From Paenibacillus harenae DSM 16969 (GTDB lineage: Bacteria; Bacillota; Bacilli; Paenibacillales; Paenibacillaceae): 64,000 nt of DNA. A program made the position numbers and the translations under genes. The notes under the pieces are model-generated. The model saw only the letters and a list, made by a program, of their open reading frames with translations, had not been told where the DNA came from and did not search any database. The stretch lies in assembly GCF_000422465.1 (NCBI RefSeq), contig NZ_KE383843.1, positions 1-64,000 on the forward strand, given 5' to 3'. Of the stretch, positions 17,528 through 45,557 are shown in pieces (position 1 is the first letter of the stretch; each line of letters starts with the position of its first letter).

Positions 17528-20500
17528 TCAATCCTGCAAGGCAGCGATCTCGCCGGCAGAGAGAGCTTGGTTATAGATCGTGAAATCATCCACTCGCCCG
17601 TCGAGATACGGATCGGCGGTATATTGGGAACGGCCGATCCAATTTTGATTCGTAGCTCCCAGATCGGACGGTTTAATGGTCATCGACGTATTGCTCCCCA
17701 CTTCAAGACCGTCGACATAGAGCGTACCGGTCGAACCATTTAAAGTGACGGCCACATGATGCCAGCCTCCCGTAGGCAGCGTCGACTGCCCGTCAATGAT
17801 TTGTTCGCTCGAACCATTGTTCTTGATCGAAAAGCGGATCTTTCCATTCGCTCCGTTTTTCGGCGTGAGGAACATATTGGTCGAAGTTCCGGAACCGAAA
17901 TCAAAAATACGCGTCCAGTTGTTAGCGCTATCCAGATTTACCCAAGCCGCAATGGTGATCGTGTCGGCCCCGGAGACAATACCGGAAGGAAGTGCAATAT
18001 AGCCGTTTGTTCCGTTAAGATCTGCTGCGTTGCCGCTCATGCCTGCTGTCCAGGTTGCACCGCCATTTAGAGTCCCGTTATTGAAGTCTCCAGACGCGTC
18101 TACAACTGCTGTCCCGCTTGTTTGGTCAAATTTATACCAGGTGATCAGACCGGCCGTGGCAAGGGAGGCGATCTCGTCGGCAGGCAGAGCTTCGTTATAA
18201 ATTCGGAAGTCATCAACTCGTCCGTCGAGGTACGGATCGGAGAATTGGGAGCGGCCGATCCAATTCTGAGTCGTTGCGCCCAGATCGGACGGTTTAATCG
18301 TCATCGACGTATTGCTCCCTGCTTGGGCACCGTCAACATAGAGAATGCCGGTGGATCCATTTAATGTGACGGCCACATGATGCCAGCCTCCAATTGCCAG
18401 CGCCTCAGTCCCATCGATGATTTGTTCGCTTGAACCATTGTTCTTGATCGCAAAGCGGATTTTTCCATTCGCTCCATTTTTCGGCGTGAGGTACATAGTG
18501 GTCGAAGTTCCGGAACCGAAATCAAAAATACGTGCCCAGTTGCTCACACTATCCAGATTCACCCAAGCCGCAATGGTGATCGTATCGGCCCCGGAGATAC
18601 TACCTGCAGGAAGCGCAATATAGTCGTCTGTTCCGTCAAGCTCCGCTGCGCCTCCGAATTGACCTGCCGTCCAGGCTGCACCGCCATTGATCGTCGCGTT
18701 ATTGCCGTATCCCGATGCGTCTGCGGCTTTAGTTCCGCTTGTTTCGTCGAATTTATACCAGGATATAAGGCTGACGTCCGGCATACTGCCCGTTGTTGCC
18801 GAAGCAATTGCCGACACGCTTGATTCTCCTGCTGCATTTACTGCCGTTACCTTGTAATAGTAGGTTGTGTTCGCCTTCAATCCCAGGCTGGCATACGATG
18901 TTCCTGTGATCAAATCGCTATTTGCCTTGGTATAGATGTCATTCTCCGCCAAAGAATCGGCGACGTATACATGATATCCCGTTGCTCCCGGTACAGCCGA
19001 CCAGCTTAAGGCAATTGAACTCTGGTCTGCAGTTGTTGCCGCTATACCTGTTGGCGCTGCCGTTACGGTGCCCAATGTTTGTCCGTTCATCACACTGACA
19101 ACTTCCGATGAACTTATCGCACGGGTATAGATTCTGAAATCATCCACCCGTCCGTCGAGATACGGGTCGGAGTATTGGGAGCGTCCGATCCAATTCTGAG
19201 TCGTTGCGCCCAGATCGGACGGTTTAATCGTCATCGACGTATTGCTCCCTACTTGGGCACCGTCAACATAGAGAGTGCCGGTTGAACCATTTAATGTGAC
19301 GGCCACATGATGCCAGCCTCCCGTCGGCAGCGCCGATTGGCCTTCAATGAATTGCTCACTCGAATTATTATTTTTGATCGCAAAGCGGATTTTTTCATTT
19401 GCTCCGTTTTTCGGCGTAAGTAACATATAGGTAGAGGTTCCCGAACCGAAATCAAATATACGCGTCCAGTTGCTCACGGTATCCAGATTAACCCACGCCG
19501 CAACCGTGATTGTGTCGGCATCGGAGACACTACCTGCAGGAAGCGCAATATAGCCGTTTGTCCCGTCAAGATCTACTGCGTTGCCTGTTGGCCCGGCTGT
19601 CCAGGCTGCGCCGCCATATACTGTCCCGGTATTGCCATATCCAGATGCGTCTGCGGCAGAAGTCCCGCTCGTTTCATCAAATTTATACCAGGCTTTTAAA
19701 TTGGTGTCGACGATGACTTTTACGGTTGCATGATAAGCTTGACCGTTATATGTCGCGGTAATCGTAGCCGTACCCACACTTATCCCGGTCACCAAACCTG
19801 CCGAATCGACGGTTGCCACAGCCGGGTCGGATGAGGTAAAGCTTGCTTGACTTGTAAGCTCCTGGCTGCTTCGATCCGGATGAATGACTCTTAGTACGGA
19901 TTGGTGCGTATGATTGACATTAAGGACATAATTGCTTACATCAAAGGCCGGAACGCCGGTTCGTCCCGTTGTTGCCGATACAACGGCCGACGTCGGTCCG
20001 CCGGACACTCCTGCCTTGTAATAGTAGATCGTATTATGTGATAAGCCTGTATCGCTATAAGACGTTGTTGTCATTGGCGCACTGTTAATCTGTGTATACG
20101 TTCCATTTTCTTCTGTTGATCTGTAAATGTTGTAACCGAGCGCTCCCGATACAGCCGTCCAGCTTAAGTTGATCGCATCCGAGCCGTCCATCGTTGCCGT
20201 TAGTCCTGTTATGCCGCCTAAGGAGATCTTGTTGCTCAAGCCATCCGCTATAGCCGCATCAGGCGTGTACAACAAAGTCGCAAGCGGATAATCCTTTCCT
20301 GCAACTTCCGGCATTCTCGTTTCATAGGCATAGGCCAAGTATTTGAATTTTTCCTGGGTCATATCCTGCCCTTCAATATATTTATAATAGTTATATAGAA
20401 CACTTAAGTAAGGATCGAATCTACCCCTGCCCGGCCATGGGCTTATCGACTCAAAATATTGGAATGTGCTGCTTTGATTTGCCCATGCAGGTGAATATAA

Positions 20501-21679
20501 AACATCATAACCCAAATGATATTTCAGAGCATAAGTCGTCCCTTCCAGCAAGCGGTCATCGAGGAAATTGAATGCATTCACCGCATTCGCTGCAGTTGAC
20601 ATCGTTCCATCTTCCGGGTCAACCTTCGTCCCTTGGGCATAGATCGTTTGCGCCAATGTAGACAGTCCGGCGATATCGGCGTAAGTATGCCCCTGATCGC
20701 GCCCCATTTCGATTAACTGCACATGATAATCCGACGGGTCGAGCGGTTCACCTGTCATTTCATTTTTCGTCATCCACCTCATCTGCTGCTTGATCGAACC
20801 GTTTCTTCCCCCATCATCGCCTAATGCATTCACTGTTGTTGCTTCTACGGCTTCCGCATAAAGCTCCAAGTCATTTGTAAAGATCGCTCGCGCCATGGTT
20901 CCCATAACCGTGAATTGGTGCTGATTCATGAAAAAATAATGCGCGTTATAAGTGACCGAGCAAAGTTCCATCATATTGATAAAATTCTGAGTATCGGTTT
21001 CATTCCATTTCAGACTCCCCGTCGGTGTATCGGAATAACGCAAAATTTCTGCCGCTGCTGCGAGCAAATAAGTCATCGTTGCGAAACGGAAGCTCGTATG
21101 CGCAGCGACAGACTGGATGCCGGCATAAGATCTTATGATATACATCGCATTCGAACGATACGTTTCATCACCGGTAATGTACCACATAATGGCTTGATGA
21201 AAAGCAGTTTCGGAATCCGTATTCGCACGGGTTCCCGCATAGTCGCTGGGATTGGAGTAATAGATCCCATCGATGGTTGCAGCCCAGGGGCCGCGGATAT
21301 TTACAAACACGTCTCTTCCTTCTTCATAGAATATACGCGGAGTTTTGCCGGATCTGCGATCGCTCGCAAACGCCTGGAACGCCGTATTCCATGGCTCGTC
21401 CCCTGCTCTTACATGATCGCGCATATTGTCCAGATCGGCCAGCGACATGGCAATGCCCGGATGATGGATCTTCGCCGTTTCCGTGTTTCCGCTAGCGTCC
21501 GTGTAAGAAGCATTTACATCGGCACTTACTGCCTGCGGTTTGTAAGAAGTAACGAGCGGCGAAACAGCCGCATTCGCTGTTTCGATGCCTCCAAAACCTG
21601 TAAAAGTCATGGCTAACGTAAAACAAAGAATACTAGAAATAACCTTCTTGGTAAGCGCTCTTATTTGCGATAAGTCCAT
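17528..21679 (-). CDS. Secreted alginate-lyase-like enzyme with Ig/FN3 and three LamG modules
   Basis: The product is about 1383 residues from the ATG at 21679 (MDLSQIRALT), which follows AAAGGAGG by eight bases; an earlier ATG at 21706 lies ahead of that site. After the signal peptide (ends near NAA, residue 38) comes an alginate-lyase-like alpha-helical domain (about 77-476) with MNQHQFTVMG and EMGRDQGHTYADI, the likely active-site segments. Then follow FN3 (493-568), a Big2-type bacterial Ig domain (580-655), LamG (660-857), FN3 (873-963) and two more LamG modules (966-1170 and 1178-1383). It should cleave an acidic or helical-barrel-type substrate outside the cell while the LamG modules bind glycan. 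Substrate is unknown. The three LamG modules are almost identical in DNA. It has a terminator of its own. Confidence 0.85.
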   Translation of the reverse strand: MDLSQIRALTKKVISSILCFTLAMTFTGFGGIETANAAVSPLVTSYKPQAVSADVNASYTDASGNTETAKIHHPGIAMSLADLDNMRDHVRAGDEPWNTAFQAFASDRRSGKTPRIFYEEGRDVFVNIRGPWAATIDGIYYSNPSDYAGTRANTDSETAFHQAIMWYITGDETYRSNAMYIIRSYAGIQSVAAHTSFRFATMTYLLAAAAEILRYSDTPTGSLKWNETDTQNFINMMELCSVTYNAHYFFMNQHQFTVMGTMARAIFTNDLELYAEAVEATTVNALGDDGGRNGSIKQQMRWMTKNEMTGEPLDPSDYHVQLIEMGRDQGHTYADIAGLSTLAQTIYAQGTKVDPEDGTMSTAANAVNAFNFLDDRLLEGTTYALKYHLGYDVLYSPAWANQSSTFQYFESISPWPGRGRFDPYLSVLYNYYKYIEGQDMTQEKFKYLAYAYETRMPEVAGKDYPLATLLYTPDAAIADGLSNKISLGGITGLTATMDGSDAINLSWTAVSGALGYNIYRSTEENGTYTQINSAPMTTTSYSDTGLSHNTIYYYKAGVSGGPTSAVVSATTGRTGVPAFDVSNYVLNVNHTHQSVLRVIHPDRSSQELTSQASFTSSDPAVATVDSAGLVTGISVGTATITATYNGQAYHATVKVIVDTNLKAWYKFDETSGTSAADASGYGNTGTVYGGAAWTAGPTGNAVDLDGTNGYIALPAGSVSDADTITVAAWVNLDTVSNWTRIFDFGSGTSTYMLLTPKNGANEKIRFAIKNNNSSEQFIEGQSALPTGGWHHVAVTLNGSTGTLYVDGAQVGSNTSMTIKPSDLGATTQNWIGRSQYSDPYLDGRVDDFRIYTRAISSSEVVSVMNGQTLGTVTAAPTGIAATTADQSSIALSWSAVPGATGYHVYVADSLAENDIYTKANSDLITGTSYASLGLKANTTYYYKVTAVNAAGESSVSAIASATTGSMPDVSLISWYKFDETSGTKAADASGYGNNATINGGAAWTAGQFGGAAELDGTDDYIALPAGSISGADTITIAAWVNLDSVSNWARIFDFGSGTSTTMYLTPKNGANGKIRFAIKNNGSSEQIIDGTEALAIGGWHHVAVTLNGSTGILYVDGAQAGSNTSMTIKPSDLGATTQNWIGRSQFSDPYLDGRVDDFRIYNEALPADEIASLATAGLITWYKFDQTSGTAVVDASGDFNNGTLNGGATWTAGMSGNAADLNGTNGYIALPSGIVSGADTITIAAWVNLDSANNWTRIFDFGSGTSTNMFLTPKNGANGKIRFSIKNNGSSEQIIDGQSTLPTGGWHHVAVTLNGSTGTLYVDGLEVGSNTSMTIKPSDLGATNQNWIGRSQYTADPYLDGRVDDFTIYNQALSAGEIAALQD
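17530..19700 (-). repeat. Three near-identical LamG-encoding repeats, about 600 bp each
   Basis: Copies lie at about 17530-18145, 18170-18780 and 19110-19700. They share long stretches such as the one around CAGATCGGACGGTTTAAT (17661, 18281 and 19211) that encodes IKPSDLGATTQNWIGRSQ. An FN3 domain separates the third from the second. The similarity points to recent intragenic duplication or conversion. Confidence 0.9.
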
Positions 21680-21712
21680 ATCATTTGCCTCCTTTTTTTC
21701 GAACATTCATAG

Positions 21713-21953: not shown

Positions 21954-24900
21954 CTAGATCACGATCCGAGCCCAGCGGATCAGATTATTCGCTTGCTCTT
22001 GCGTGAAATATTTCCCGGTTTGATCCGTTACCTGTTTGATATAGTCGGCCATCATGCTCTTCGCAGCGTCTATTTTTCCTTGGCCGGCCGCAGCTTTCGC
22101 CTGGTCCAGCTTTTGATTCAGCGATTTCGCCACGGGATCCGATGCTTTGGCATTCGTCTCCTGCAGGAATACGTTCGTCACGGTCTTCAAGCTGTCAAAC
22201 GTGACCATCACCGTAAACGTATGGTCGGCTGTCGTCTGATTGCCCGCCATATCCTCCACTGTGACCGTAGCCGTATGCTCGCCGGATTCCAGCGTATACG
22301 CCTTGACCTGAAGCACCGGCTGATCGCACGGCGAATAAGTGACGCCGGATACGGTGTCAACCGCATTGCATGTGATATTGATCGTCTGATCAATGGTATA
22401 CGAAGCTTCGCCGGCAATCGTGACTTGCGGTGCAGTCAGATCGATCTTGACATTCACCGATTTCGGATAGACCGAATCGGTCACCGTAACCGGTCGATAC
22501 AGCATTTGGTTCGCGCCTTCTTGGCTCAGTGTAACGGGCGCTTCATAGGCGAACCAGTTGCTGCCGCCGTCCACACTGTACTGCACATTCCCTTGAGCCG
22601 ACAACGTCACCGTTACCGGCGCCGTGTACCACCCGTTCAGGCCGTTCGGTTCGGAAGGATCGAGCGACGCCGTGATCTTGATCTCCAGTTCTTCCAGTGC
22701 TTGCAGCAGACTTGCAGCTGCCGCATCAATCTCCTCCTGGGTTGCATCGGCATTCCCGCCCACAAGCTCCGCTTCGGAGACCGCCATCTGCAGGACCGCT
22801 ACACTTTCTTCGGTATAATATTCGGCATTAATGGCAGCAGCTTCTTCCAGCAGAACCGTAAGCAAGCTGTTGTCGATCCATTTCGCCGTATTGTTGTAAA
22901 CGGCCTGGATTTCTTCCGCGCTCAAGGCATAGTTGTAGATGCGGAACTCGTCGATCATGCCGCTCAGCAGCGGATCGTTAAACTGGCTCTTGCCGATGTA
23001 GTTTTTCTTCGGTTTGAAATTGCTCGGCTTGATCGTAAAATTGCCGGCTGTTGCTTTCTCCTCGCCGTTCACATACAGCTTCGCCGTACCGCCGCCGAGC
23101 GTCACCGCTACATGCACCCACTTATTGCTAGCGAGCTGCGAGGTTTGAATAATCTGTTCGCCGCCGCCGTTCTTGATCGCGAAACGCAGCGTATTGTTGC
23201 CGGACCTTGGCGTGAGGAACATAAACTGATTGGTGTCGTTGCCAAAGTCAAAGATGCGCTGCCACTGGTTGCCGCCCTTCCAGTACACCCAGGTTGCAAA
23301 TGTCATCTCGTCGTAATTGGCAACCGGATGCGTCTCAGGCAGCATCACATGGTGTTGTCCGTTCAGATCGACAGCCTGTCCGATCTTGCCGGCCGGATAT
23401 TCAGGGGTTCCATAAACGGTTCCGCCCGTCGATCCGATGGCATTGTCCGCGTTGCCTTCGAACGAATAAAGCGAGATAGGAATGTGAACAAGCAACCCTT
23501 CAGCCTGGTCAAGCTCAGCTATAAGCTTCAGCTTATCGGCTCCCGGCTTCATGATCTCCGTTTCGATTCGCTCTGCCTCTTTGAAGTACAGGTAGTAGCT
23601 GCCCTTCGTGTAGTCAGCTGCCGGAAGGATATGAAGCATTACCTTGAAGTCCACGGTTTGGCTAACACTAAAGCTTCCGTTGCTGACGGTAAAAGTTACA
23701 GGATGACTTCCATAATTCGCTTGATCCGGAGTCCATGTGAAAGTGCCTTTCGGTACGTCAAATACCGCACCTGCAGGTAAATTCTCGGCACTATAAACAA
23801 GCGGCTCATTCGTTGGATCGGTTGCAGGCACCTGATAGGTAAATAACTTCTCCGCCATCAGTTCAACGGTCGCAACGGATTCGAAAACCGGCTGCCCTTT
23901 GACCGTGATCTTGACCGTTTTGGAAGAAGACAATTCACCGGCTGTTGCGGTAAAGATTACAGAATATATGCCGCCTTGTTCTTTACTTGGCGTCCAGTCG
24001 AAGACCTGAGTATCCGCGTTGAAGGTTGCTCCCTCAGGCAGACCGCTGATCCCGTAAACGATTCCGGCAGTTTCAGTCTCCGCTTGAACGGTGAATGTAA
24101 GTTTACTTTCCGCAATGACGGTTTTATTTCCTATGGAAGCAATCACCGGCATTCCCGGAATATACTGCAGTCCTTCCAGCGCCGTCACCAAGCTCTCTGC
24201 CGCCGCATCGATCTCTTCCTGTGTTGCACTGGCGTTGCCTTCTAACGATGTTGCTGCAGTTACAGCCTGCTCGAGAGACTGCAAGCTTTCAGCCGTATAA
24301 ACCTCAGCAGCAATTGCAGCAGCTGATTCATCCAGCAAGTACGCAAGCAAGGTTTTGTCAATGCCTCTCTCAAGGAACTCTACTTCCTGAAAGTTCACGA
24401 AACCGGAATGATCATCATAGATTCGGATATAACGGTATGGCGTCGTATCCGGATTGATTGCGGAATACCATTTGAATTCCGTTACGGCGGTAATCTTATG
24501 CAGATCTACCCAATTCACTCCATCGTTAGAGCCTTTGAATATCGTATTGTTGGCACGGCTTAAATGGCTCTGCCTTGGAAGATAGCGGAAGGTGTCAACC
24601 ACTTTTTCATTACCTGCGCCAAAATCTACATCAACCCAGCTTACAGCTGACCTGGTATGGGTAAGGTTAGTCTCTATGCCATCGAATATGAACCATCCGT
24701 TTTGTTCTTCAGAGATATTATCATTACCCCAGCCTTTTTCGGAGGCTCTGACCATAGAAGGCTGTACCTGAACTTTCGCCAGATTCACCCTGAACGAAAC
24801 TAATAATTTTTTCGCCTCATAAATGTCGTTAATAAGCTTCGCCTCATCAAATTCCGGGCCTGCCATCTCCGCTTTGATTCGATCCAATACCTTATGGAAC

Positions 24901-27900
24901 TGGTAGAAGCTCGCCTTCGTATAGTCGGTAGCCGGCAAGCTCTCCGCATCCTCCAGCACCGTCGAAATCGAATCCGCATAAGCGCTTGCGGCGGCCGAGA
25001 ACGGTTGCGGGGAGCCGTCGCCGTGAACGGCCATCACCTTGTAATGCACGCTGCCGAACCGCAGGCCGTCCTGGAATGAAGTCGCTCTTGTACCCTTGAG
25101 AACCTCCTCCCAAGGAGAGCCGTCTTCCAGTTCTGTTGTGCCTGGTTTCAATACCGGATCGGTCAAGCTCGCCTCTTCATCATAGGTGCGATATACGTTG
25201 AACCAGGAGGCTTGCTTCGGTTTATTCCAGTTCAGCGTTATCTGATCCTTCACTCTGGCGGCGAAAGGAGTGACGATGCCTTGCGGCGTTTCCGTTATCG
25301 TGACTTCGCTGAATTGCGCCTGATCGCTTGCGGTTACTCCGGTATAGTACGCATAAGGCAGCAAGGTAGACATCTTCGTCACATACGTCCAATTCGTCCC
25401 ATCCTTGGATACGAAGGCGTACACGGTCTGCGAATCATGATCCCGCATCAGTTTGACGTACGGATACTCTGCCGCGGTGTAGCCTTGAATATTCGCATTC
25501 AGCGGGCTTGCGACCGGAATCGAAAATTGAGCGAACGAGACCCTCGTGCGGTTTTGCAGCACAAGGCCGCCGTTCTCGTTCGCACCGAAATAGATGTAGC
25601 GGGCTTTGTCCTTTGTGAGCCGGTCGCGCATCATAATGCCGCCCGCTTCACCCGAAGCGCTGCCGATCTTCGCACTGACGGAGCTGTTGCCGGAAGCGAC
25701 CCGGCTTACAAAATGCAGCGAATCGTTAATATCCCGCTTGTAAATATTGGAGTCGTCTCCTTGATCGAAACCTGTCCCGTTGACAGCATCGATCGATACG
25801 GAAGAACCGTCGATTACTGCGTTGCCTCCCGTGGTCCCGATCCGGTCGTCGCGCCATGCCTCATCGGTATTACCGGATATCGGCGCCGTCAAATCCGCTT
25901 TCGCGCGCCACGAATCCCAGCCCGCTCCGTTCCCGTTGACGGCCGAAACTTTATAGTAGTACACGTTGCCGTTATGAACCGTTGTGTCTTTGTAGTAATT
26001 GCCGGTTACTCCTTCAGCGATAATCACATAAGGTCCGTCTTCCGCTTCCGAACGTTTAATCGTGTAGGATTGCCCGCCTGAAGTCGTTTTCCAGGTGATG
26101 CCGACATAACCGTTGCCTGCAAGCGCATGGACAAAGTCAACATGGAACGGCTTCGAAGCGAGTTCGAAATCCGACGTCAATTTCAGCACCATTGCCGTTT
26201 TGGGCTGGACGGTCACTTTGCCGTTCACGACCGGCACATTCGTCCCCGTGACAAGATCGAGCACCTCGCTGCCCGCGAAGTCGGCCGGCAGTTCTACCTC
26301 GTATGTCATCTTGTTGCCGTACTCGTCGCGGGTCGTGTTGAAAATCATGAAATACTTGCCGTACCTTGACGTAGACAATTCCGGATAATTGTTGTAAGGA
26401 TTGTCTATTTCAAAGTTGTCGCGGTTAATCGTTCCTACGCCCGGCTGATAAGAAGCTGGCACAGCTTCGCCTGCCAGCACCGGCGGCGCACCGGTCCAAT
26501 TCAAATTTTGCGCCGATCCGGAATGATAATCCCAGTCGATCTGGGGTGCCCGCAAGTAGTAATCTTCATACCGGAATCGGTTATTCGCGGCGATCTGGAC
26601 GACATGATCGTAATTGTCTTTGATCACATGGAGGCGTCCATTGCTTGCCATACCGCGATTGCGGAAATTCAGCTCGCCGAACATTCTGAAATCGCCGTCT
26701 CTTACCGACACGTACATATTGTCGATATCCGCCCATGCCAACTGCTCGTAGTCGTCCGGATTGACTCCGAGCGCGGCAATTTCTTCCGGCTTATAAACGT
26801 CGAAATCCGTGTGCGGAAGAACAACCCCAGCCATCGCATTACCGTCAAATCGTCCGTAATTGGCCCGGCCTTCCGTGATGTAATGGTAGGTTTCTTCAAG
26901 CAGAAAATTTACTCCGCTCATGCTTCCTCTATATCCGAAGTCTTTCACATGCAACAGCTGGCGATCCGCAAGCTGCTGCTGCACGAAACCGACCGCTTCT
27001 CCCGCATATTGCCAGTACTTGTCCCACTCCGGACCGCTGTATCTTTGCTCGTTCCCGGCCATCGCCATTTCCAGGGATGCGAACTGCAAGCTCATTCCTC
27101 TGCCGGTTCTCGCGCCGTATGCCATGAAGCCGGAAAAGCTTTGATTTCGCTCATCGGTCACTTGTTCCGCTCTCATGATTCTTTTACCGTCGCCATCCAA
27201 TGACGGATAACGGACAAATCCGCGGGCGTGGATGGATGTAAGCGCCGCTTTCAGGATTTCGTCGTTAACCTCTTCGTCGCCGGCGTGGCCGAGCGTTTTA
27301 TAGAAATAAACCAAAAGATAGTTGGCGGCCTCGCCGTAGTTGGCTACATAACCGTTTTCCCTTGTAAGTCCAGCCTCGGTTAAGCCGGTATAATGCTTGC
27401 CGTAAGGCAATCTTCTAACCACGTTGCCTTCCGCGTCCAGCTTGCTCTTAGCCAGCCCTTTGCCGACAATGTGGACGAAATCGTCCGTAAAGACCGCGCT
27501 TCCATCATGTTTAAACAGGGAATGGTACAAATCCAATTCTTCGCCGCCGGGACCGACCAGCACCTCTTCACCCAGGAATGGCGCGATCCCCAAAGTTTCA
27601 AGCAGGATTCGGTGACTGCGCTCTTTGCCTTCAAAGAATGGCGAGCCGATGATGCGCAGCCCCTCGTGAGATTTCCACGCACCTTCGTACATATAAACGA
27701 CCTGGTTATATATATATGAAAGCCGCGCACGGGCAAAGTCGAAGTTCGCTTTCATCACCCGTTCCCAGGCTGCGCGCCGAGTCAATTCGCCGCCGTCCCA
27801 GTCTACGCCCGCCAGAGAAAATTCCCCTTCTGTTGTTCCGGTCGCGAACGGTTCATCCAGAAACTCATTAAACGCCGCTTCTCCATAAACGGAATCGTCC

Positions 27901-28952
27901 TTAATCAGATTTTCGACGATGTACAGCGCTTCGCCAAGAGCCATATAGTAACCGCCCCAGTCGCCCTGATGTCCGCCGCGCAGCACGAGTCTCGTATTGC
28001 CGTAATAATCTTTCACATGGTTATCGATCGTCTTGAATATGCGCTGAAGCGCCGCTCTTTTCTCCTCCGGCGTCTGCGCCGGAGACCAATCGTACTTCAA
28101 CACGTTGGCGTAAAATTTTAGCTCTTCAATATATTTGTGGATCGCCAACTTGCCGCCAGCGCTTCCATCCACTTTGGCCGATAAATTGTTAAACAGATTA
28201 ACCTGTTCTTGCACGTAGCCATCGATCAGAGCCTGTTTCTCCGCATCCGTCAGATCCGGCGCCAGCATGTTATCCGGATTCTGGTCGGGCTTGAATTTAA
28301 AGCCCTGCTTTTCCCCATCCGCATGAATATAGGCTTGTGTATGGGTATAGGCGCTATAATAGCCCCTTGAAACAGTCGTCATACTGTTCCAGGGATGGGA
28401 TTTAATCGTGATCTCGACCGTATCCTTCCCAACCGTTGATTCCAGCGGAAGCATGATCGTTTTGTAAAAAAAGCGGTTCGAAAGCACCCAGCCCGTGTTT
28501 ATAGGTTCATAATCCCCATTTGTGGTATATCCAATCTGCTCCCCGTTAATATGAATCATTTCGTTGGAGGTGGACGATTCTTCCCCTGAAAATTTCACGG
28601 TGAAATAGTTGCGGAGATACGGATCGACTTTCATTGTAAAAGTCAACTCCCCCCCGCCCCCATCAGCTGTGCGAATATTCGACACACGGGCTGTTTCGCC
28701 CATGAAACCGGTAATTACGCTCGTAAAGGCGTCCTTGAAGTTGTGAGCGCTTTCAGAATCAATATTGCCGAAATCAAGCTTGTCCAAATAACCGTTAGTT
28801 GTCGGCCCTTCTTCCGCATGCACCACCTTACCTGGCACGGGTACGAGCCCCGGGAAAATCAACGCGGCGATCAAGAGAATAATCATGACCCTTCCGGATT
28901 GTCGTTTCGTTTTCTTTACTCGTTTGAATACGTCCCCTATGGAACCTTTCAT
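21954..28952 (-). CDS. Giant secreted multimodular protein, probable polysaccharide-active enzyme of unrecognised family
   Basis: About 2332 residues from the ATG at 28952, nine bases after AAAGGAG; the frame is open to 29024 but that start lacks support. A signal peptide ends at VVHA. The first 900 residues are an alpha-helix-rich region I do not recognise, with segments such as GGHQGDWGGYYMALGE, YMYEGAWKSHEGLRIIG and DERNQSFSGFMAYGARTGRG; the layout resembles alpha/alpha-toroid lyases. Then come FN3 (930-1015), a DUF1349-like sandwich (1027-1220), FN3 (1224-1330), an F5/8-type discoidin domain (1387-1527), FIVAR (1530-1594), two putative-Ig domains (1597-1767), LamG (1824-2020), FIVAR (2027-2090), two Ig-like domains and a helical C-terminus. 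There is no sortase or SLH motif. It should act extracellularly; the reaction is unknown. Confidence 0.85.
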   Translation of the reverse strand: MKGSIGDVFKRVKKTKRQSGRVMIILLIAALIFPGLVPVPGKVVHAEEGPTTNGYLDKLDFGNIDSESAHNFKDAFTSVITGFMGETARVSNIRTADGGGGELTFTMKVDPYLRNYFTVKFSGEESSTSNEMIHINGEQIGYTTNGDYEPINTGWVLSNRFFYKTIMLPLESTVGKDTVEITIKSHPWNSMTTVSRGYYSAYTHTQAYIHADGEKQGFKFKPDQNPDNMLAPDLTDAEKQALIDGYVQEQVNLFNNLSAKVDGSAGGKLAIHKYIEELKFYANVLKYDWSPAQTPEEKRAALQRIFKTIDNHVKDYYGNTRLVLRGGHQGDWGGYYMALGEALYIVENLIKDDSVYGEAAFNEFLDEPFATGTTEGEFSLAGVDWDGGELTRRAAWERVMKANFDFARARLSYIYNQVVYMYEGAWKSHEGLRIIGSPFFEGKERSHRILLETLGIAPFLGEEVLVGPGGEELDLYHSLFKHDGSAVFTDDFVHIVGKGLAKSKLDAEGNVVRRLPYGKHYTGLTEAGLTRENGYVANYGEAANYLLVYFYKTLGHAGDEEVNDEILKAALTSIHARGFVRYPSLDGDGKRIMRAEQVTDERNQSFSGFMAYGARTGRGMSLQFASLEMAMAGNEQRYSGPEWDKYWQYAGEAVGFVQQQLADRQLLHVKDFGYRGSMSGVNFLLEETYHYITEGRANYGRFDGNAMAGVVLPHTDFDVYKPEEIAALGVNPDDYEQLAWADIDNMYVSVRDGDFRMFGELNFRNRGMASNGRLHVIKDNYDHVVQIAANNRFRYEDYYLRAPQIDWDYHSGSAQNLNWTGAPPVLAGEAVPASYQPGVGTINRDNFEIDNPYNNYPELSTSRYGKYFMIFNTTRDEYGNKMTYEVELPADFAGSEVLDLVTGTNVPVVNGKVTVQPKTAMVLKLTSDFELASKPFHVDFVHALAGNGYVGITWKTTSGGQSYTIKRSEAEDGPYVIIAEGVTGNYYKDTTVHNGNVYYYKVSAVNGNGAGWDSWRAKADLTAPISGNTDEAWRDDRIGTTGGNAVIDGSSVSIDAVNGTGFDQGDDSNIYKRDINDSLHFVSRVASGNSSVSAKIGSASGEAGGIMMRDRLTKDKARYIYFGANENGGLVLQNRTRVSFAQFSIPVASPLNANIQGYTAAEYPYVKLMRDHDSQTVYAFVSKDGTNWTYVTKMSTLLPYAYYTGVTASDQAQFSEVTITETPQGIVTPFAARVKDQITLNWNKPKQASWFNVYRTYDEEASLTDPVLKPGTTELEDGSPWEEVLKGTRATSFQDGLRFGSVHYKVMAVHGDGSPQPFSAAASAYADSISTVLEDAESLPATDYTKASFYQFHKVLDRIKAEMAGPEFDEAKLINDIYEAKKLLVSFRVNLAKVQVQPSMVRASEKGWGNDNISEEQNGWFIFDGIETNLTHTRSAVSWVDVDFGAGNEKVVDTFRYLPRQSHLSRANNTIFKGSNDGVNWVDLHKITAVTEFKWYSAINPDTTPYRYIRIYDDHSGFVNFQEVEFLERGIDKTLLAYLLDESAAAIAAEVYTAESLQSLEQAVTAATSLEGNASATQEEIDAAAESLVTALEGLQYIPGMPVIASIGNKTVIAESKLTFTVQAETETAGIVYGISGLPEGATFNADTQVFDWTPSKEQGGIYSVIFTATAGELSSSKTVKITVKGQPVFESVATVELMAEKLFTYQVPATDPTNEPLVYSAENLPAGAVFDVPKGTFTWTPDQANYGSHPVTFTVSNGSFSVSQTVDFKVMLHILPAADYTKGSYYLYFKEAERIETEIMKPGADKLKLIAELDQAEGLLVHIPISLYSFEGNADNAIGSTGGTVYGTPEYPAGKIGQAVDLNGQHHVMLPETHPVANYDEMTFATWVYWKGGNQWQRIFDFGNDTNQFMFLTPRSGNNTLRFAIKNGGGEQIIQTSQLASNKWVHVAVTLGGGTAKLYVNGEEKATAGNFTIKPSNFKPKKNYIGKSQFNDPLLSGMIDEFRIYNYALSAEEIQAVYNNTAKWIDNSLLTVLLEEAAAINAEYYTEESVAVLQMAVSEAELVGGNADATQEEIDAAAASLLQALEELEIKITASLDPSEPNGLNGWYTAPVTVTLSAQGNVQYSVDGGSNWFAYEAPVTLSQEGANQMLYRPVTVTDSVYPKSVNVKIDLTAPQVTIAGEASYTIDQTINITCNAVDTVSGVTYSPCDQPVLQVKAYTLESGEHTATVTVEDMAGNQTTADHTFTVMVTFDSLKTVTNVFLQETNAKASDPVAKSLNQKLDQAKAAAGQGKIDAAKSMMADYIKQVTDQTGKYFTQEQANNLIRWARIVI

Positions 28953-29191: not shown

Positions 29192-31117
29192 TCATCTACT
29201 CTCGTCTCCGCCAGATGTTAGGTTTAGTTCGAATTCTCCTACCGCCTCCATGCCCACCCGGCGCAATACTTCAAGCCGGAAGGCTGTCGGCCACGCAACC
29301 AGCCATTCCGAAACGCCGAACGGCTCCGCCCAGCGGGTGTGAAAGAAGCCTTCGCTTTGGCTGCCCTCCGGACGCAGCTTGCCATTGATCATCAGGCTGC
29401 CGTCCGAAATGCCGATCGTCGCATTCGCCCATGCGGCGATGGCTCTTTCGCGCCACATCATGTTTCCGGTCAGTGCAGCCAGTTCAAGCCAGTCCTCGAC
29501 AAAAGCTAGCGCGAATGGATCGATATGATGGTGCTGAGTGGATACTGCCGTCCCTCCGAACGTATCGTACCCGATGTCTCCCAGTCCGGTCCTTGAGTCA
29601 TACCCAACAGTATGATGCCACTGCCATGTTGCCAGATACCAGGCGGCATGCTCCGCCAATTCGAGATACGTCAGCTTGCCGGTAACTCGGAACAGCGCAA
29701 GACCCGCTTTGAGCAAAGGAATTGCCGACTCCTTGTCTACGCAATAGGTATCCAGCGCCCCCGCCGTCGTGTAGCCGTTGCTCTGCAGCTCCCTCATATA
29801 ATAGCGGTAGCCAAGCTCCGCCCCATGAAGGTAGGCTTCATTGCCTGTAAGCTCGTATGCCTTGACCAGAGGCGGGACTAGGAAGCAGCCGACCGTGCCC
29901 TCCGGATCATGCGGAGTCCCGTCGTTCTTCCACGACTTCCCGATCCGGCCTTCCGGCGATTGCACGGATAAGACGAAATCACAAATGCCGAGCGCGGTTT
30001 CGCGGTAGATCGGCCGCTCCACTCCGCATCTCCGGGCCAATTCTTCCGCCTCGAACAGGTTTAACGCAGCCGTGCCGAGGTTGCAGGCGTCCTGCACTTC
30101 CTGCTCTGCCGGCTTGAATTGCAAGACGTAGTCGTACTCACAATGAATCATCCCGTTCGGCAGCCTTCCGCCGGCTGTCCAGCCGTCCAGTACGGCGAGG
30201 CCTCTACGAAGCGAATCCTCATTGCCGGAATTCAAATAATCTGCAAGCATCGAATTGGCCAGGGAAGCGTTCTGCCCGCACCAGCCGATTGCGTAATTGC
30301 GAGCTTGTCGCCACTTCTCTCCGTCCCATTTTCTGCCGAGCGAGAATCCCCGAAAATCCCCGTCTTCGGCCCATAGGCTATTCTTGGCATACGCCATGCC
30401 CAGTTCCCAGATGCGCTCTGGTTCATACCTTGCCCGAACCGGACGTTGTTGCAGCCGCCAGGCCTCTTCGAGCATCATTCTCCACGACGTGCGCGGCTCT
30501 GTGTAAGCATGTAGCGTCAGAAATGCACGGGCCGTAAACGTCTCGCCCGGCACAAAGTTCCTCTCCGCTTCGTATGCCTCGCCGTAACGGTCTCGGTCAT
30601 CGTAGGTCGCGGGCGACTCTACCTCCGGCCAGATCAGCCGGTGGATGACTCGTCCTCCAGCCGGCACGAGCGAGCAGGAAAAGCCTTGCATAACACGGGG
30701 AGGCTCGCCGAACAAGGCCACGGCAACACCGCCTCCCTCGGAGTAGGTTGCGCCGGCCACCGCCGTCCGATGCCACGCAAATACCCAAGGCTGTCCATCT
30801 CGCTCCAGCCCTTTCGGCTCCAGGCCGCTGCCCCAACCGTTCCCGTTGTAGGTGACGGAAGGAATCATATAATACTCAGGCTCGTAGTCGGCGGCGAAAT
30901 CCATCGATAGCTTGCACGAAGCAGGCGACTCGCCTTGATAAGTGAACTTCCGCGTCCATTGCGCCAGTCCTTCCCTTAGCAGTTTGAATGTATCGGTTGC
31001 TGCGAAGCGTTCGTCTTCGAACGGCAAGACGTCGCCGATGGTCCTACCGCCCAAGCGGAACCTATAGCCGTTGTCATTTTCACGTTGTTTCCAGTTGATC
31101 TCCACCGTCATCACCAT
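29192..31117 (-). CDS. Cytoplasmic six-hairpin-glycosidase-like protein, function unknown
   Basis: The 641-residue protein has no signal peptide. An N-terminal beta-rich part (1-210; YMIPSVTYNGNGWGSG, WVFAWHRTAVAG) precedes an alpha-helix-rich part (220-620) with repeated helical pairs and motifs such as NYAIGWCGQNASLANSMLAD, DTYCVDKESAIPLLKAG and STQHHHIDPFALAFVEDW. This looks like an alpha/alpha six-hairpin glycosidase barrel. I cannot name the family. It is fifth in a minus-strand series after the binding protein and permeases (35017-31241), so it probably acts on the imported oligosaccharide. The start at 31117 lacks a good ribosome binding site. The frame continues for 37 codons past its TGA. 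Confidence 0.75.
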   Translation of the reverse strand: MVMTVEINWKQRENDNGYRFRLGGRTIGDVLPFEDERFAATDTFKLLREGLAQWTRKFTYQGESPASCKLSMDFAADYEPEYYMIPSVTYNGNGWGSGLEPKGLERDGQPWVFAWHRTAVAGATYSEGGGVAVALFGEPPRVMQGFSCSLVPAGGRVIHRLIWPEVESPATYDDRDRYGEAYEAERNFVPGETFTARAFLTLHAYTEPRTSWRMMLEEAWRLQQRPVRARYEPERIWELGMAYAKNSLWAEDGDFRGFSLGRKWDGEKWRQARNYAIGWCGQNASLANSMLADYLNSGNEDSLRRGLAVLDGWTAGGRLPNGMIHCEYDYVLQFKPAEQEVQDACNLGTAALNLFEAEELARRCGVERPIYRETALGICDFVLSVQSPEGRIGKSWKNDGTPHDPEGTVGCFLVPPLVKAYELTGNEAYLHGAELGYRYYMRELQSNGYTTAGALDTYCVDKESAIPLLKAGLALFRVTGKLTYLELAEHAAWYLATWQWHHTVGYDSRTGLGDIGYDTFGGTAVSTQHHHIDPFALAFVEDWLELAALTGNMMWRERAIAAWANATIGISDGSLMINGKLRPEGSQSEGFFHTRWAEPFGVSEWLVAWPTAFRLEVLRRVGMEAVGEFELNLTSGGDESR

Positions 31118-31240: not shown

Positions 31241-32164
31241 CTACTCTTTTATAGAACCGAGCAGCACGCCTTTTATAAAAAACTTCTGCGCAAAAGGGTA
31301 CATAATGACCATCGGAATCGACGAGATAACCATCGCCGCCAGCTGAAGGGTTCGGGCTGTAACAATTCCCGCACCTTGAGCTTTTGAATAGAGTGCTTCG
31401 ACTGCGGCATTGTTGGCGCCCGCGACATTAGCCATCTGTTCAACCGCATTACTCGACTGTATCAGCTTTAAGATCAGGTACTGCAGCGTCTGCAAATCAG
31501 CGGATTGGGTGAAATACAGCGTCGCTCCGTAATCGTTCCATACGCCGACTGCCGTAAACACCGAAAGAGCAGCCAAAACCGGCTTCGATAACGGGATAAC
31601 AATACGGAAGAACATCGTATACTCATTCGCTCCATCCATTTTGGCCGATTCGAACAGAGCTTCGGGAATCGCCTTGAAATTCGCATTGAAAATAATGACA
31701 TTCCAAAATCCGCCAAAAAGGGCAGGGATGATGTAAACCCAGTAAGTATCATATAAACCGAGCCAATTCAACAGCATAAACGAAGGAATCAGACCGCCGC
31801 TAAAGTACATGCTCGTAAAGCCAATTGCCACATACCATTTTTTCCCTTTTAAATAAGAACGGGAAAAAGCGTAAGTAAACATCGCCGTATACAGAATAGA
31901 GATAACCGTTACAATCACCGTCCGCGAACCGCTAATCCATGCAGCCTTGAGCATCCCCGGATCCGACATAACCGTCGCCCAGCTCGCCCATGTAAATTCT
32001 CTTGGCCAAGCAAATATAGGTCCGCGCACAAGATTGTCGCCTGTATTCAAAGAATTGACGACAGAAAACCAAAACGGATATATCGTCACGATCATTATAG
32101 CGATCATGATGACGACATTCGTCACATTAAAAGTACGTTCTCTCCAGCTCCTGCCTCCGACCAT
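31241..32164 (-). CDS. ABC sugar permease, YtcP-type (MalG-like)
   Basis: The 307-residue membrane protein has six predicted helices, an EAA loop (ESAKMDGANEYTMFFRIVIP) and the family end FAQKFFIKGVLLGSIKE. The ATG follows GGAGG by eight bases. It forms an importer with the LplB-type permease upstream and the lipoprotein at 33320-35017; the ATPase must come from elsewhere. An enzyme of unknown function follows in the same direction. Confidence 0.93.
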   Translation of the reverse strand: MVGGRSWRERTFNVTNVVIMIAIMIVTIYPFWFSVVNSLNTGDNLVRGPIFAWPREFTWASWATVMSDPGMLKAAWISGSRTVIVTVISILYTAMFTYAFSRSYLKGKKWYVAIGFTSMYFSGGLIPSFMLLNWLGLYDTYWVYIIPALFGGFWNVIIFNANFKAIPEALFESAKMDGANEYTMFFRIVIPLSKPVLAALSVFTAVGVWNDYGATLYFTQSADLQTLQYLILKLIQSSNAVEQMANVAGANNAAVEALYSKAQGAGIVTARTLQLAAMVISSIPMVIMYPFAQKFFIKGVLLGSIKE

Positions 32165-32248
32165 TCCGGACGCCTCCTAAAAGTTATTCTCGCTGCTTCC
32201 CTAAATCATCTTCTCTGCAAGCGAAAAACTCGCTTCGGAAGCATACGT

Positions 32249-33229
32249 TTAAAACAAACCTGATTTTGTAAGCTTCTTGGATAGATGGTTGGCTCCAAGC
32301 AGCAGCGCAAGCGCAAACACCGATTTCATTAACCCGATCGCCGTAGCCGAAGCAAACTGGAACTGCCCAAGACCCGTTCGATACACGTAAGTGTCAATAA
32401 CTTGACTGGTCGGCATGTTCAAAGAGTTTTGCAGGACGTAAATCTGCGTAAAGTTATTGTTCAGCATGCCGCTTATTGCGAATATGACCAGAATCATAAC
32501 CGTAGGCAAAATGCCGGGCAGCGTGATGTGCAGCATTCGTTTCAAACGGCTCGCCCCGTCGATAGCGGCAGCCTCATATAAAGACTGGTCGATGCCTGCC
32601 ATGGCAGCCAAATACAAGATGGCGCCCCAGCCTATTTCTTTCAATAAATTGGTTCCGATGGCGATGCCCCAGAAATATTTTGGCTCGCCCAGAAACAGAA
32701 TAGCCTCATCGATCAGGCCCAGCTTCAGGAGTAAAAAATTTACGATGCCGCCATCCGGATTGAGCAGCGTAATGAACAACCCGCCAAAGATAACCCAGGA
32801 AAGAAAATGCGGCAGATACGTGACGGTTTGTACAAACGATTTAAACTTGGCATTCTGGATCTCGTTTAAGAGCAGCGCGAAAATCAGGGTTACCGGGATC
32901 CCGATCAGCGACCCCAAGAGATTGATGCCTAGCGTATTTCTCACCATGGGCCAAAACTCAAAGTTCCGGAAAATCGTCATAAAGTTCTCGAAATTGTTCC
33001 ATTGACTCGTGAAAATCCCTTTAAAACCCGAGATGGGATCGTAGGCCTTGAATGCCATCAACAGCCCGGACATCGGGATAAAATCGAATATGACAATGAT
33101 AATAATTGCTGGCCAAAGCATCGTCATGAGCTCCAACTGGGTTCGAAGATCGTGCCCGAGCCTGAACGTTTTTTTTCTTTTGATATTTGCTGTCGGGATG
33201 CCTCCCTGGGTGGCGCCTTTTGCCATCAT
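32249..33229 (-). CDS. ABC sugar permease, LplB-type (MalF-like)
   Basis: The 326-residue membrane protein has six predicted helices and an EAA loop reading SLYEAAAIDGASRLKRMLHI. It starts behind GGGAGGGA and ends 84 bp before the YtcP-type gene. A strong hairpin separates it from the binding-protein gene upstream, which may lower permease expression relative to the lipoprotein. Confidence 0.93.
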   Translation of the reverse strand: MMAKGATQGGIPTANIKRKKTFRLGHDLRTQLELMTMLWPAIIIIVIFDFIPMSGLLMAFKAYDPISGFKGIFTSQWNNFENFMTIFRNFEFWPMVRNTLGINLLGSLIGIPVTLIFALLLNEIQNAKFKSFVQTVTYLPHFLSWVIFGGLFITLLNPDGGIVNFLLLKLGLIDEAILFLGEPKYFWGIAIGTNLLKEIGWGAILYLAAMAGIDQSLYEAAAIDGASRLKRMLHITLPGILPTVMILVIFAISGMLNNNFTQIYVLQNSLNMPTSQVIDTYVYRTGLGQFQFASATAIGLMKSVFALALLLGANHLSKKLTKSGLF

Positions 33230-33257
33230 TCGTCCCTCCCTTGAAAAACAATGATAA

Positions 33258-33295
33258 TGCCAAAGTGCAGCATGGAATGCACATGCACTTTGGCA
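33258..33295 (-). terminator. Intercistronic hairpin between binding-protein and permease genes
   Basis: A perfect 12-bp inverted repeat (TGCCAAAGTGCA / TGCACTTTGGCA) with a 14-base loop lies 24 bases after the lipoprotein stop codon. The following minus-strand sequence (TTATCATTG) is a poor T tract, so it is more likely an mRNA-stabilising or partial terminator element that raises binding protein over permease. Confidence 0.7.
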
Positions 33296-33319
33296 CTATT
33301 CATCACTCGAATCTTACAA

Positions 33320-35017
33320 TTATGAATTAACGCCTTTAACCGTTACGCCCATTTCCTGAGACTTCTTCTGAAGTTCCGCGTCCAGCGCCGCATCAAGCTC
33401 GTCGACCTTCAATTGTTTCATCTTAGTGACAAACTCGTCATAGAGTTTGTTGAACGCTGCCTCATCCTTCGCGAGTACCATCTTGGCAACCTGAGCTTCA
33501 TAATATAGCTGGATTTGATCTCTTGTGATTGCATTTTTGCTTCCCGGTGCATAGAAATCGCCAGGCAATGTCAGTACGGAAGCATCATATCTAACGACTT
33601 CCGGTGATCTGCCGTAAGCGGTCTTCGCTTCCATCTCAATCAATCCTCCGGCGCCTTCCCTCTTTGTCGGAGCAGGCTGCACGTTTTCAAGAAATGCCAT
33701 ATTGACGAATTGCCAGAAGATATCCACTGCCGTTTTGCTGCTGTCCTTCTGAGCTTGAATTCCTTCATCCGTTCTTGTAATGAGACCTTTGTCGTCTTTC
33801 GTGTAATGGACGCCTTCGATACCAAAGTTACTGAGCGTCATCCCCTCGGCACTGGTCACATAACTAAGCCATTTCGCCAACTTTTCCGGTTCCTTTGTCG
33901 ATTTGGAAATCATCGTTTGCATCCAGCCGCGTCCCGGTTCGGACCAGAACGGGAACACCGGCTTTGTGCCTTCACTCGACAAGATCGCACCGGGCGAAAC
34001 CCAGAAATCAAGCTGTTCAAATTTGCCTTTGGGCGTCCCTCCGATGAACATGAACACACGTTTGGACAAGAGGTTCGCTTCGATCGACGCTTCATCCGTC
34101 GTCATCTGGCCGGGGTCGAAGTACCCGCCTTGGGCCGCCTTAAACAGGAATTGAATGGCATGCTTGTTTTCAGGAGACATGTAAATATTTCTAAATTTCC
34201 CGTCTTTGTCAATTGGCATCGCGCCAAAAGATTTTTGAAGGTATTGGAGCGTTTCGCCATGGTAGTTTTTGCCGTGAATCTGAAGCGGCATGACAGGCTG
34301 TCCGTCAACCGTCAGTTTCATGTCCTTTACCTTCTTAAGAGCCGCGAGCACGCCATCTTCGGTTTTCAGATCGGTAAGGGCAATGCCGGCCTCTTTCAAA
34401 ATATTCGCGTTGACTAATACGCCTTTGTTTTCAGCATACTTCGCTACATCCGCAAAGTAGTCGCTTGACGGAGGATATACCTCTCTCGCGTCATCGCTGA
34501 CCATGTGACTTCCAATCGCGAACCAGCCGCCATAATGCTTGACCATTTGCTCCTTCACATCTGCTGGAAAATCTTTGAGCAAATGGGATTCCGGATCGTA
34601 TTTCTCGAGAAATTCTTCCAGCTCCCAAACTTTGCCGGCATCAACCAGCTTCTTGCCCATATCCGGGCCTATGGTCGTGATGACATCCGGGAAACCGTCC
34701 GACGTTGAAACCATCATCAGATTCAATTTCGTATCGCCGTCTTGCGCCGGAATGTTGTAGCTGAAGGTAAGCCCTGTCTTTTTCGTCAATTCGCCCATAA
34801 CGGTACCTTCGTCCGTGTTCCATTGAGGCGGGTTCCAACCTCCTACTGTAGCGAACCAGTTCAAATTAACCGGTGCCGCAGACGCGCCCGGCGAAGCAGT
34901 CGCTCCGGTATCCGCCGAATTCGTCGGCTCGGTGCCGCTTCCCGATTTATTGGCGCTGCAGCCTGACAACGCAATCGTTGCGGCCAACGCCAGAATTGTA
35001 AACCCTTTCATTTTCAT
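33320..35017 (-). CDS. Solute-binding lipoprotein of an oligosaccharide ABC importer
   Basis: About 565 residues with signal peptide and lipobox LSGC, followed by a Thr/Ser/Ala-rich linker and an LplA-type binding domain. Segments typical of the group include TSDGFPDVITTIGPDMGKKL and the KVPAQ-like inner hinge. Of three close ATGs, the one at 35017 lies nine bases after AGGGGG and is preferred over that at 35026. It is first of an importer gene set (35017-31241) directly downstream of a kinase/regulator pair, the common arrangement in which the regulator controls the importer. Confidence 0.92.
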   Translation of the reverse strand: MKMKGFTILALAATIALSGCSANKSGSGTEPTNSADTGATASPGASAAPVNLNWFATVGGWNPPQWNTDEGTVMGELTKKTGLTFSYNIPAQDGDTKLNLMMVSTSDGFPDVITTIGPDMGKKLVDAGKVWELEEFLEKYDPESHLLKDFPADVKEQMVKHYGGWFAIGSHMVSDDAREVYPPSSDYFADVAKYAENKGVLVNANILKEAGIALTDLKTEDGVLAALKKVKDMKLTVDGQPVMPLQIHGKNYHGETLQYLQKSFGAMPIDKDGKFRNIYMSPENKHAIQFLFKAAQGGYFDPGQMTTDEASIEANLLSKRVFMFIGGTPKGKFEQLDFWVSPGAILSSEGTKPVFPFWSEPGRGWMQTMISKSTKEPEKLAKWLSYVTSAEGMTLSNFGIEGVHYTKDDKGLITRTDEGIQAQKDSSKTAVDIFWQFVNMAFLENVQPAPTKREGAGGLIEMEAKTAYGRSPEVVRYDASVLTLPGDFYAPGSKNAITRDQIQLYYEAQVAKMVLAKDEAAFNKLYDEFVTKMKQLKVDELDAALDAELQKKSQEMGVTVKGVNS

Positions 35018-35132
35018 ATTAATCATCCCCCTGCATATATTGTTTACTGCTTCTTTAGCATAACGGCATACGTACAGACAGCCTATGTTTCCATTTTAAT
35101 CTTTTTGTGCTTTTCGATAATTTTGGACAAGG

Positions 35133-40896: not shown

Positions 40897-40926
40897 AAGG
40901 GATTTCCTGTCCTCTCTTCAACTTTA

Positions 40927-42936: not shown

Positions 42937-42959
42937 GCTTATCCCCTTCCCCAGTCCTA

Positions 42960-45446: not shown

Positions 45447-45521
45447 AACAATATAATCCTTTCCATTTTAAATTTGGCTTTATAACAAGCACGATGCTCT
45501 AGCGCCGAAACAATGACGGAA

Positions 45522-45552
45522 AGTCCGGAACACGTCGTGCATGTTCCGGACT
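45522..45552 (-). terminator. Intercistronic hairpin between binding-protein and enzyme genes
   Basis: A perfect 11-bp inverted repeat (AGTCCGGAACA / TGTTCCGGACT) begins six bases after the lipoprotein stop codon at 45558. The minus-strand downstream sequence (TTCCGTC) is not a T tract. As at 33258-33295, it sits directly behind a binding-protein gene. Confidence 0.65.
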
Positions 45553-45557
45553 AAAAA

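Follow-up and report, generated by a model that had tools for sequence, protein, structure and literature searches.

The N-terminal region of P0001, a secreted protein of 2332 amino acids encoded on the reverse strand at positions 21954–28952 of the window (the whole 64,000-nucleotide stretch of DNA analysed here), belongs to a real protein family, beyond chance, with five further copies in the same genome and 79 loci across phyla. The family, its domain layout, its residue conservation and its gene neighbours are direct results of computation; the activity is predicted, and the members are probably polysaccharide lyases from the toroid plus beta-sheet group that cleave a uronate-containing polymer by beta-elimination.

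A widespread family outside the searched libraries

The limits of P0001 follow from its translation and from a good ribosome-binding site, AAGGAG, lying just 5' of the ATG at position 28952. Judged by eye from the sequence, residues 1–46 (28815–28952, reverse strand) form a signal peptide with cleavage after VHA. In whole-protein scans against Pfam and NCBIfam (E ≤ 1), the best-scoring stretches all lay behind residue 1529, and weak FN3 and F5/8-like matches additionally appeared in Pfam when the protein was cut into pieces. The C-terminal binding and spacer modules (21954–26135, reverse strand) thus comprise FN3, F5/8-like, two FIVAR, two He_PIG, one laminin-G, a Big/OmpL47-like stretch and FIMAH. 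A preliminary description of this DNA had drawn the boundary of the N-terminal region at a first FN3 domain and counted about ten modules behind it; the series of modules is present, roughly eight or nine in number, and the FN3 match exists but is weak (PF00041, 14.7 bits against a cut-off of 25), with the F5/8-like match just under its own cut-off.

Ahead of these modules, residues ~54–930 had no match in Pfam, in NCBIfam or among PDB sequences, and residues 1–951 gave a single chance match (E 0.9) among the PDB sequences. The same held at the level of the family: no Pfam family matched more than three of 49 members at E ≤ 0.1, and a profile built from the 49 was without a PDB match at E ≤ 10. 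The earlier view that the N-terminal region (25900–28952) lacks a known family is therefore borne out by Pfam, NCBIfam and PDB sequence scans, and a literature search returned no publication recognisable from its title or the opening of its abstract as describing the family.

P0001 is one of six copies in its own genome; the other five are 63–78% identical to its N-terminal region and lie in open frames of 1857–2533 amino acids. Within the genus, 13 of 51 genomes carry the family, the own genome included, and this was the only carrier among 299 genomes sampled over the phylum. Further afield, a plasmid search added relatives from Sphingobium and from Halocatena marina, a haloarchaeon, at 23–28% identity. 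A scan of genome contigs with one peptide pattern, which contains E532, Y539 and G540, yielded 120 candidate stretches, 79 of which were confirmed as family loci. Identities were 60–96% in Paenibacillus, 48–56% in Streptomyces and Nonomuraea, 51% in Dysgonomonas and 36–40% in gut Clostridia, with more distant relatives (22–31%) in Bacteroidota, Verrucomicrobiota, Planctomycetota, Armatimonadota, Sphingobium, further Actinomycetota and haloarchaea. None of 26 pattern matches in viruses was confirmed. In four loci (L064, L092, L095 and L096), phmmer detected a second relative beside the first.

A 51-row tree contains a fully supported split between the clade of P0001 and a compact clade that includes the haloarchaea, with a warning from the tree program of long branches at the join of the two. 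Of the five other own-genome copies, three are paired with counterparts from other Paenibacillus species, which places these duplications before the separation of those species. Several side observations concern the same groups. Two short open frames (124 and 141 aa; G023:C4:423508-423849 and G029:C33:97536-97793) hold domain fragments 80–95% identical to the family and are perhaps decayed or truncated copies. A divergent relative, recognisable as pieces 31–37% identical, sits within a 3327-aa open frame of the same genus (G031:C1:1856553-1859465). In a haloarchaeal locus (L017:12800-16081), a 1094-aa protein with no Pfam match adjoins a family member; the equivalent protein in L096 (from 12677) is that locus's second, more distant family member.

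Predicted fold and comparison with known lyases

AlphaFold2 modelled the 901-residue region with a pLDDT of 88.1 and a pTM of 0.91, and its toroid plus beta-sheet part alone with values of 87.0 and 0.92. Three domains were delimited, all on the reverse strand: a CBM35/CBM6-like beta-sandwich from the model and VIA comparison (residues ~54–206, 28335–28793), present in 49/49 aligned members; an alpha/alpha toroid from the models and VIA (residues ~236–735, 26748–28247), proposed as the catalytic domain; and, from the models, an antiparallel beta-sheet domain carrying His775 (residues ~737–924, 26181–26744). The region had previously been called helix-rich, which applies to the ~500 middle residues, mainly helical, but not to the ~155 after the signal peptide, a beta-sandwich, or the last ~190, a beta-sheet. 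The accompanying guess of an alpha/alpha-toroid fold is supported by this predicted arrangement and by the leading VIA matches, which are lyases or an epimerase.

For the sandwich domain, VIA returned CBM35 structures 4qb2 (Z 12.0) and 2w47 (Z 12.1), as well as the C-terminal part of the GH146 structure 6yqh (Z 13.3). The two CBM35 entries, which hold glucuronic or anhydrogalacturonic acid, share the fold of the N-terminal domain at 7–14% identity; in the P0001 family, unlike a loose module, this domain is part of every one of the 49 members. For the toroid plus beta-sheet part, the two-domain alignments were weak throughout (8–10% identity, Z 8.0–10.2, 5.3–6.6 Å): PL35 8khw (Z 10.2, 359 aligned residues, 6.3 Å) and 8khv (Z 10.0, 359, 5.3 Å), PL17 7bjt (Z 10.1, 392, 6.0 Å), PL15 3a0o (Z 9.8, 387, 5.5 Å), dermatan-sulfate epimerase 1 6hzn (Z 8.9, 353, 6.2 Å) and PL33 8r72 (Z 8.0, 363, 6.6 Å). 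Among the first 12 VIA matches, 11 were lyases or dermatan-sulfate epimerase and one was a GH105 structure aligned on the toroid alone (4xuv, Z 10.0). Structure prediction and fold comparison thus place the region nearest, weakly, to PL35, PL17, PL15, PL33 and dermatan-sulfate epimerase. That the leading two-domain matches in these model comparisons all fall into one mechanistic group is a weak but consistent signal, and Z values near 10 at 5–6 Å may reflect only a common arrangement. PL8, PL12, PL21 and PL39 were not recognised among the 50 VIA matches displayed for the toroid plus beta model, which proves nothing. Foldseek gave 0/249 matches at E ≤ 0.001 for the toroid plus beta model; with the whole model it mainly found the N-terminal CBM-like domain, and its five matches at that threshold (three BIRC6 entries, a GH78 rhamnosidase and MiXBM) had query-length TM-scores of 0.08–0.12.

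The match to 6hzn raises the possibility of a uronyl C5-epimerase with a fold akin to that of dermatan-sulfate epimerase 1, and the PL33 paper (PMC11848413, in the portion consulted) notes a fold and a Tyr common to PL33 and DS-epi1. We nevertheless regard this as very improbable for a secreted multi-module protein encoded beside uptake genes, in a family of six copies of which four have an alginate-lyase-like gene downstream.

Profile comparisons were made against 10 PL8 proteins, eight of PL12/21 type and nine of PL15 type, some of them cut at locus ends, as well as against GH88-like and PF05426 profiles. With hhalign, the family reached at most 0.9% with any of these, while a positive control, PL12-type against PL15-type, reached 98.2%. 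Since PL8 against PL12-type, a related fold, gave only 0.1%, the family is no nearer to the tested families than PL8 is to PL12. Membership of PL8 was rejected, there being no Lyase_8_N or Lyase_8 match in Pfam and no more than 0.9% by hhalign. The PL8 His motif was likewise not found: in PL8 ChonAC the catalytic His stands nine residues before Tyr (Table 4 of PMC12088678, as excerpted), and in the P0001 family nearly all sequences have Glu seven residues before Tyr539, with no conserved His just before that Tyr. PL12/PL21 (Hepar_II_III) was excluded by the lack of PF16889 and PF07940 matches in Pfam and by 0.1% in hhalign. The previously reported failure to match PL8, PL12 or PL21 signatures therefore holds up in Pfam and in hhalign with a working control.

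Toroid plus beta-sheet folds agree weakly with PL15 (3a0o) and PL35 (8khw). The likeness to PL15 and PL17 oligo-alginate lyases (3a0o, 7bjt) consists of the two-domain alignments over 387 and 392 residues, set against 8–10% identity and 0.1% in hhalign with the nine PL15-type (PF16332) proteins, by which PL15 membership was rejected. The PL35 enzymes GAGase II and VII (8khv, 8khw), in the excerpts of their published description, share with the P0001 region the toroid plus beta-sheet and the order of Asn, Tyr and His. They differ from it in sequence (8% identity; no solved PL35 member matched the family profile among PDB sequences at E ≤ 10), and the P0001 family has an additional CBM35-like domain, a longer Asn–Tyr spacing, Gln beside the Asn, Glu seven residues before the Tyr and a His that is not always kept.

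PL33 BT4410 (8r72) is likewise alike in its two-domain alignment, and its Asn238, Tyr291 and His444, as given in the excerpted account, are ordered as Asn416, Tyr539 and His775; the order and domain positions of this triplet agree in a comparison by residue position, and His is often replaced in the P0001 family and so not strictly kept. PL33 is described in the consulted part of PMC11848413 as having two domains without an N-terminal sandwich, unlike the P0001 family. As the preliminary description had it, there is no sequence match to PL33: no solved member matched the family profile at E ≤ 10 among PDB sequences, which presumably include the PL33 structures.

Bacillus sp. GL1 has a giant gellan lyase of ~2475 aa. 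Its similar size and the glucuronic acid carried by gellan raise the question of whether the P0001 family is that of this enzyme, with an activity already in print; such an identity would overlap with the lyase assignment. Products of gellan are degraded with unsaturated glucuronyl hydrolase according to the excerpt of PMC7953866, but the same text places gellan lyases, with GL1 among the sources, in PL33, and no PDB chain, PL33 structures presumably among them, was found by the family profile at E ≤ 10. This identity is improbable in our estimate.

Conserved residues and the proposed elimination chemistry

Conservation was assessed in an alignment of 49 rows. Besides P0001 and the four second relatives, it took in 44 loci from the set of 79; those left out were near-duplicate, split or partial. 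The strongest conserved motif is RENGYVANYGE at residues 531–541, which includes E532, Y539, G540 and E541 (27330–27359, reverse strand), with Tyr539 as the proposed acid/base. E532, Y539 and G540 are each kept in 49/49 members, a constancy that is partly due to selection, as these residues are in the scan pattern. All four second relatives also retain them, although three of the four do not fit the pattern (that of L092 does). Lying outside the pattern are Trp332 (49/49), Arg602 and the proposed carboxylate-neutralising pair Asn416-Gln417 at the start of a toroid helix (27702–27707, reverse strand, codons checked), in which N is kept in 48/49 and Q in 49/49. Arg577 (46/49), Arg581 (45/49) and Arg602 (49/49; 27147–27224 for the three, reverse strand) are possible contacts to substrate carboxylates. 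Three segments singled out earlier as conserved-looking were located at residues 330–341, 420–434 and 603–622 and do not include the RENGYVANYGE motif; the first, containing Trp332, and the second, starting three residues past Asn416-Gln417, touch the conserved core, but the third, which follows the invariant Arg602, is less conserved.

His775 in the beta-sheet domain (26628–26630, reverse strand), a candidate partner of Tyr539, is present in 42 of the 45 members that reach it, being replaced by Arg in L020 and L031 and by Trp in L073. Only three of the six own-genome copies have it, with Arg in L002 and L003 and Asn in L004. Its loss in 3/45 members and in 3/6 own copies means that it is not essential throughout the family.

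The mechanistic group to which the leading two-domain matches belong employs an Asn as neutraliser and a Tyr as acid/base, together with a His (consulted parts of PMC11848413 and PMC12088678). By position in the sequence, Asn416, Tyr539 and His775 follow the order of this catalytic triplet and are candidate residues only. In the second model, Asn416 starts the toroid helix 206–225 and Tyr539 lies just before the later helix 332–344; His775 is ~38 residues into the beta domain, and the corresponding His is ~42 residues in for PL33 and ~50 for PL35, as reckoned from the domain limits and residue numbers in the excerpts of the same two papers. The Asn–Tyr spacing, which is 123 residues in the P0001 clade and 78–80 in the majority of compact members, exceeds the 53–63 reckoned from Table 4 of PMC12088678 and the PL33 residue numbers, both taken from excerpts.

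Acidic residues are conserved as well, and a glycoside hydrolase with an alpha/alpha toroid might use Glu532 (partly fixed by selection, as above), Glu541 and Asp742 (both 45/49) and Asp310 (47/49). The toroid-only VIA matches to GH105, GH88, GH15 and GH76 structures (Z 7–10), the loss of His775 from half of the own copies and the presence of neighbouring GH43, GH95 and arabinofuranosidase genes would all fit such an enzyme. The leading two-domain matches, on the other hand, are lyases and an epimerase, the near-invariant Asn-Gln and Tyr with their arginines suit a uronate carboxylate, and KduI and KduD genes stand beside the Sphingobium relatives, so that we consider a hydrolase unlikely. The original guess had left lyase and hydrolase side by side; the predicted fold supports it, and some genes nearby speak for a lyase.

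For the lyase, we infer an elimination chemistry, residue roles, a substrate class and a division of labour of the following kind. A uronic-acid-containing polymer would be bound in the cleft between the toroid and the beta-sheet domain, with Asn416-Gln417 and nearby arginines neutralising the uronate carboxylate at +1. Tyr539 would remove the C5 proton and protonate the leaving oxygen, producing a 4,5-unsaturated end, and His775 may assist where present. Binding to substrate or to cell-wall material would fall to the CBM35-like domain and the C-terminal modules; the PF05426-type enzyme encoded downstream would act on the same polymer, and the ABC transporter would import the resulting oligosaccharides. 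We give even weight to the further proposal that these proteins are the founding set of a new lyase family that spans bacteria and haloarchaea. Its variant active site would combine the Asn-Gln pair, a Tyr with an invariant Glu ahead of it, an arginine-rich carboxylate-binding site and a dispensable His in the beta domain, and an obligate CBM35-like domain would be part of the catalytic unit.

Gene neighbours and significance of the family

Directly downstream of P0001 lies a gene for a protein with a PF05426 alginate-lyase-like domain and three laminin-G modules by Pfam (17528–21706, reverse strand). Its N-terminal part alone had no PDB sequence match at E ≤ 1, and its profile found lectin-type modules in the PDB, with alginate lyases only at E 0.37–0.43. 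PF05426 proteins (PL5/PL38 type) are recurrent gene partners of the family, yet different proteins: the partner as a distant copy of the P0001 family was rejected by profile comparison (0.1%). In the own genome, a gene of this type lies directly downstream of four of the six copies, P0001 included. A PF05426 search located five places, of which three immediately follow a family copy. For these Pfam matches, the chance of such pairing within 10 kb is ~5e−5 if the genes are independently placed, a figure that overstates independence, as the partners may have duplicated along with their neighbours. The fourth partner was found by similarity, so that the Pfam count of partners is a lower bound. 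The partners fall into two subfamilies, with 70% and 23% identity to the partner of P0001.

Upstream, a 641-aa protein (29192–31117, reverse strand) had no Pfam, NCBIfam or PDB match over cut-off and no evident signal peptide; its orthologues adjoin orthologous family genes in L018, L019 and L033, and a relationship to GH88 was unsupported (hhalign 0.9–4.0%). Beyond it, Pfam identified ABC sugar-transport genes for permeases and a solute-binding protein (31241–35026, reverse strand; 32249–33229 assigned without a scan of its own). Elsewhere in the window, a run of genes for GH95, GH31, two GH43-type enzymes and a solute-binding protein, next to those for a sensor kinase and a response regulator, makes up a second sugar-utilisation cluster (38521–47171), and a 544-aa open frame on the forward strand (11090–12724) has no Pfam match at E ≤ 1e−4.

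Across 82 loci surveyed for neighbours (L015–L096), PF05426-type genes occur in 27, and all 18 aligned ones, including the partner of P0001, match PF05426 at E ≤ 0.01. In Sphingobium V4, the relative adjoins a GH88-like gene (PF07470, 7.1e−17), KduI (369.8 bits against a cut-off of 250) and KduD (390.7 against 338.85; NCBIfam curated cut-offs for both), and the same set stands beside the relative in Sphingobium TCM1. These are the only two of the 82 loci with KduI nearby. KduI and KduD process products of unsaturated uronates, according to the excerpt of PMC7953866. GH88-like genes occur in 11/82 loci and adjoin the relative in six of seven Clostridia loci; with 7–11 PF07470 matches in each of the four Clostridia host genomes searched, this neighbourhood is weaker as evidence there. 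Their scores against PF07470 are low, and they may belong to GH105 or GH154. The own genome has 19 PF07470 matches, all of them more than 35 kb from any family copy.

The neighbour scans took 53 of 64 genes around Clostridia relatives, among which GH43, PF05426 and GH28 recur in 7, 6 and 3, and 70 of 120 around distant relatives, where no listed Pfam family occurred in more than four. The Halocatena relatives are surrounded by genes with annotations as mannonate dehydratase, sulfatases and alpha-L-fucosidase. A Sphingobacteriaceae locus has the order family member, GH95, arabinofuranosidase, PF05426 and second family member. As a guess, this order, along with the GH95, GH31 and GH43-type genes in the window, hints at a plant heteropolysaccharide containing uronate, L-arabinose and either L-fucose or L-galactose.

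A predicted catalytic unit of ~900 residues thus occurs six times in one Paenibacillus-type genome, with relatives from soil, gut and salt habitats, and is given no name by Pfam, NCBIfam or PDB sequences. If its members are lyases, they would carry out a step in the breakdown of acidic polysaccharides, possibly plant gum, hemicellulose or microbial exopolysaccharide, that is absent from the annotation of all host organisms. The family would then also be a test of how much rearrangement the Asn/Tyr/His machinery tolerates in toroid lyases and in dermatan-sulfate epimerase.
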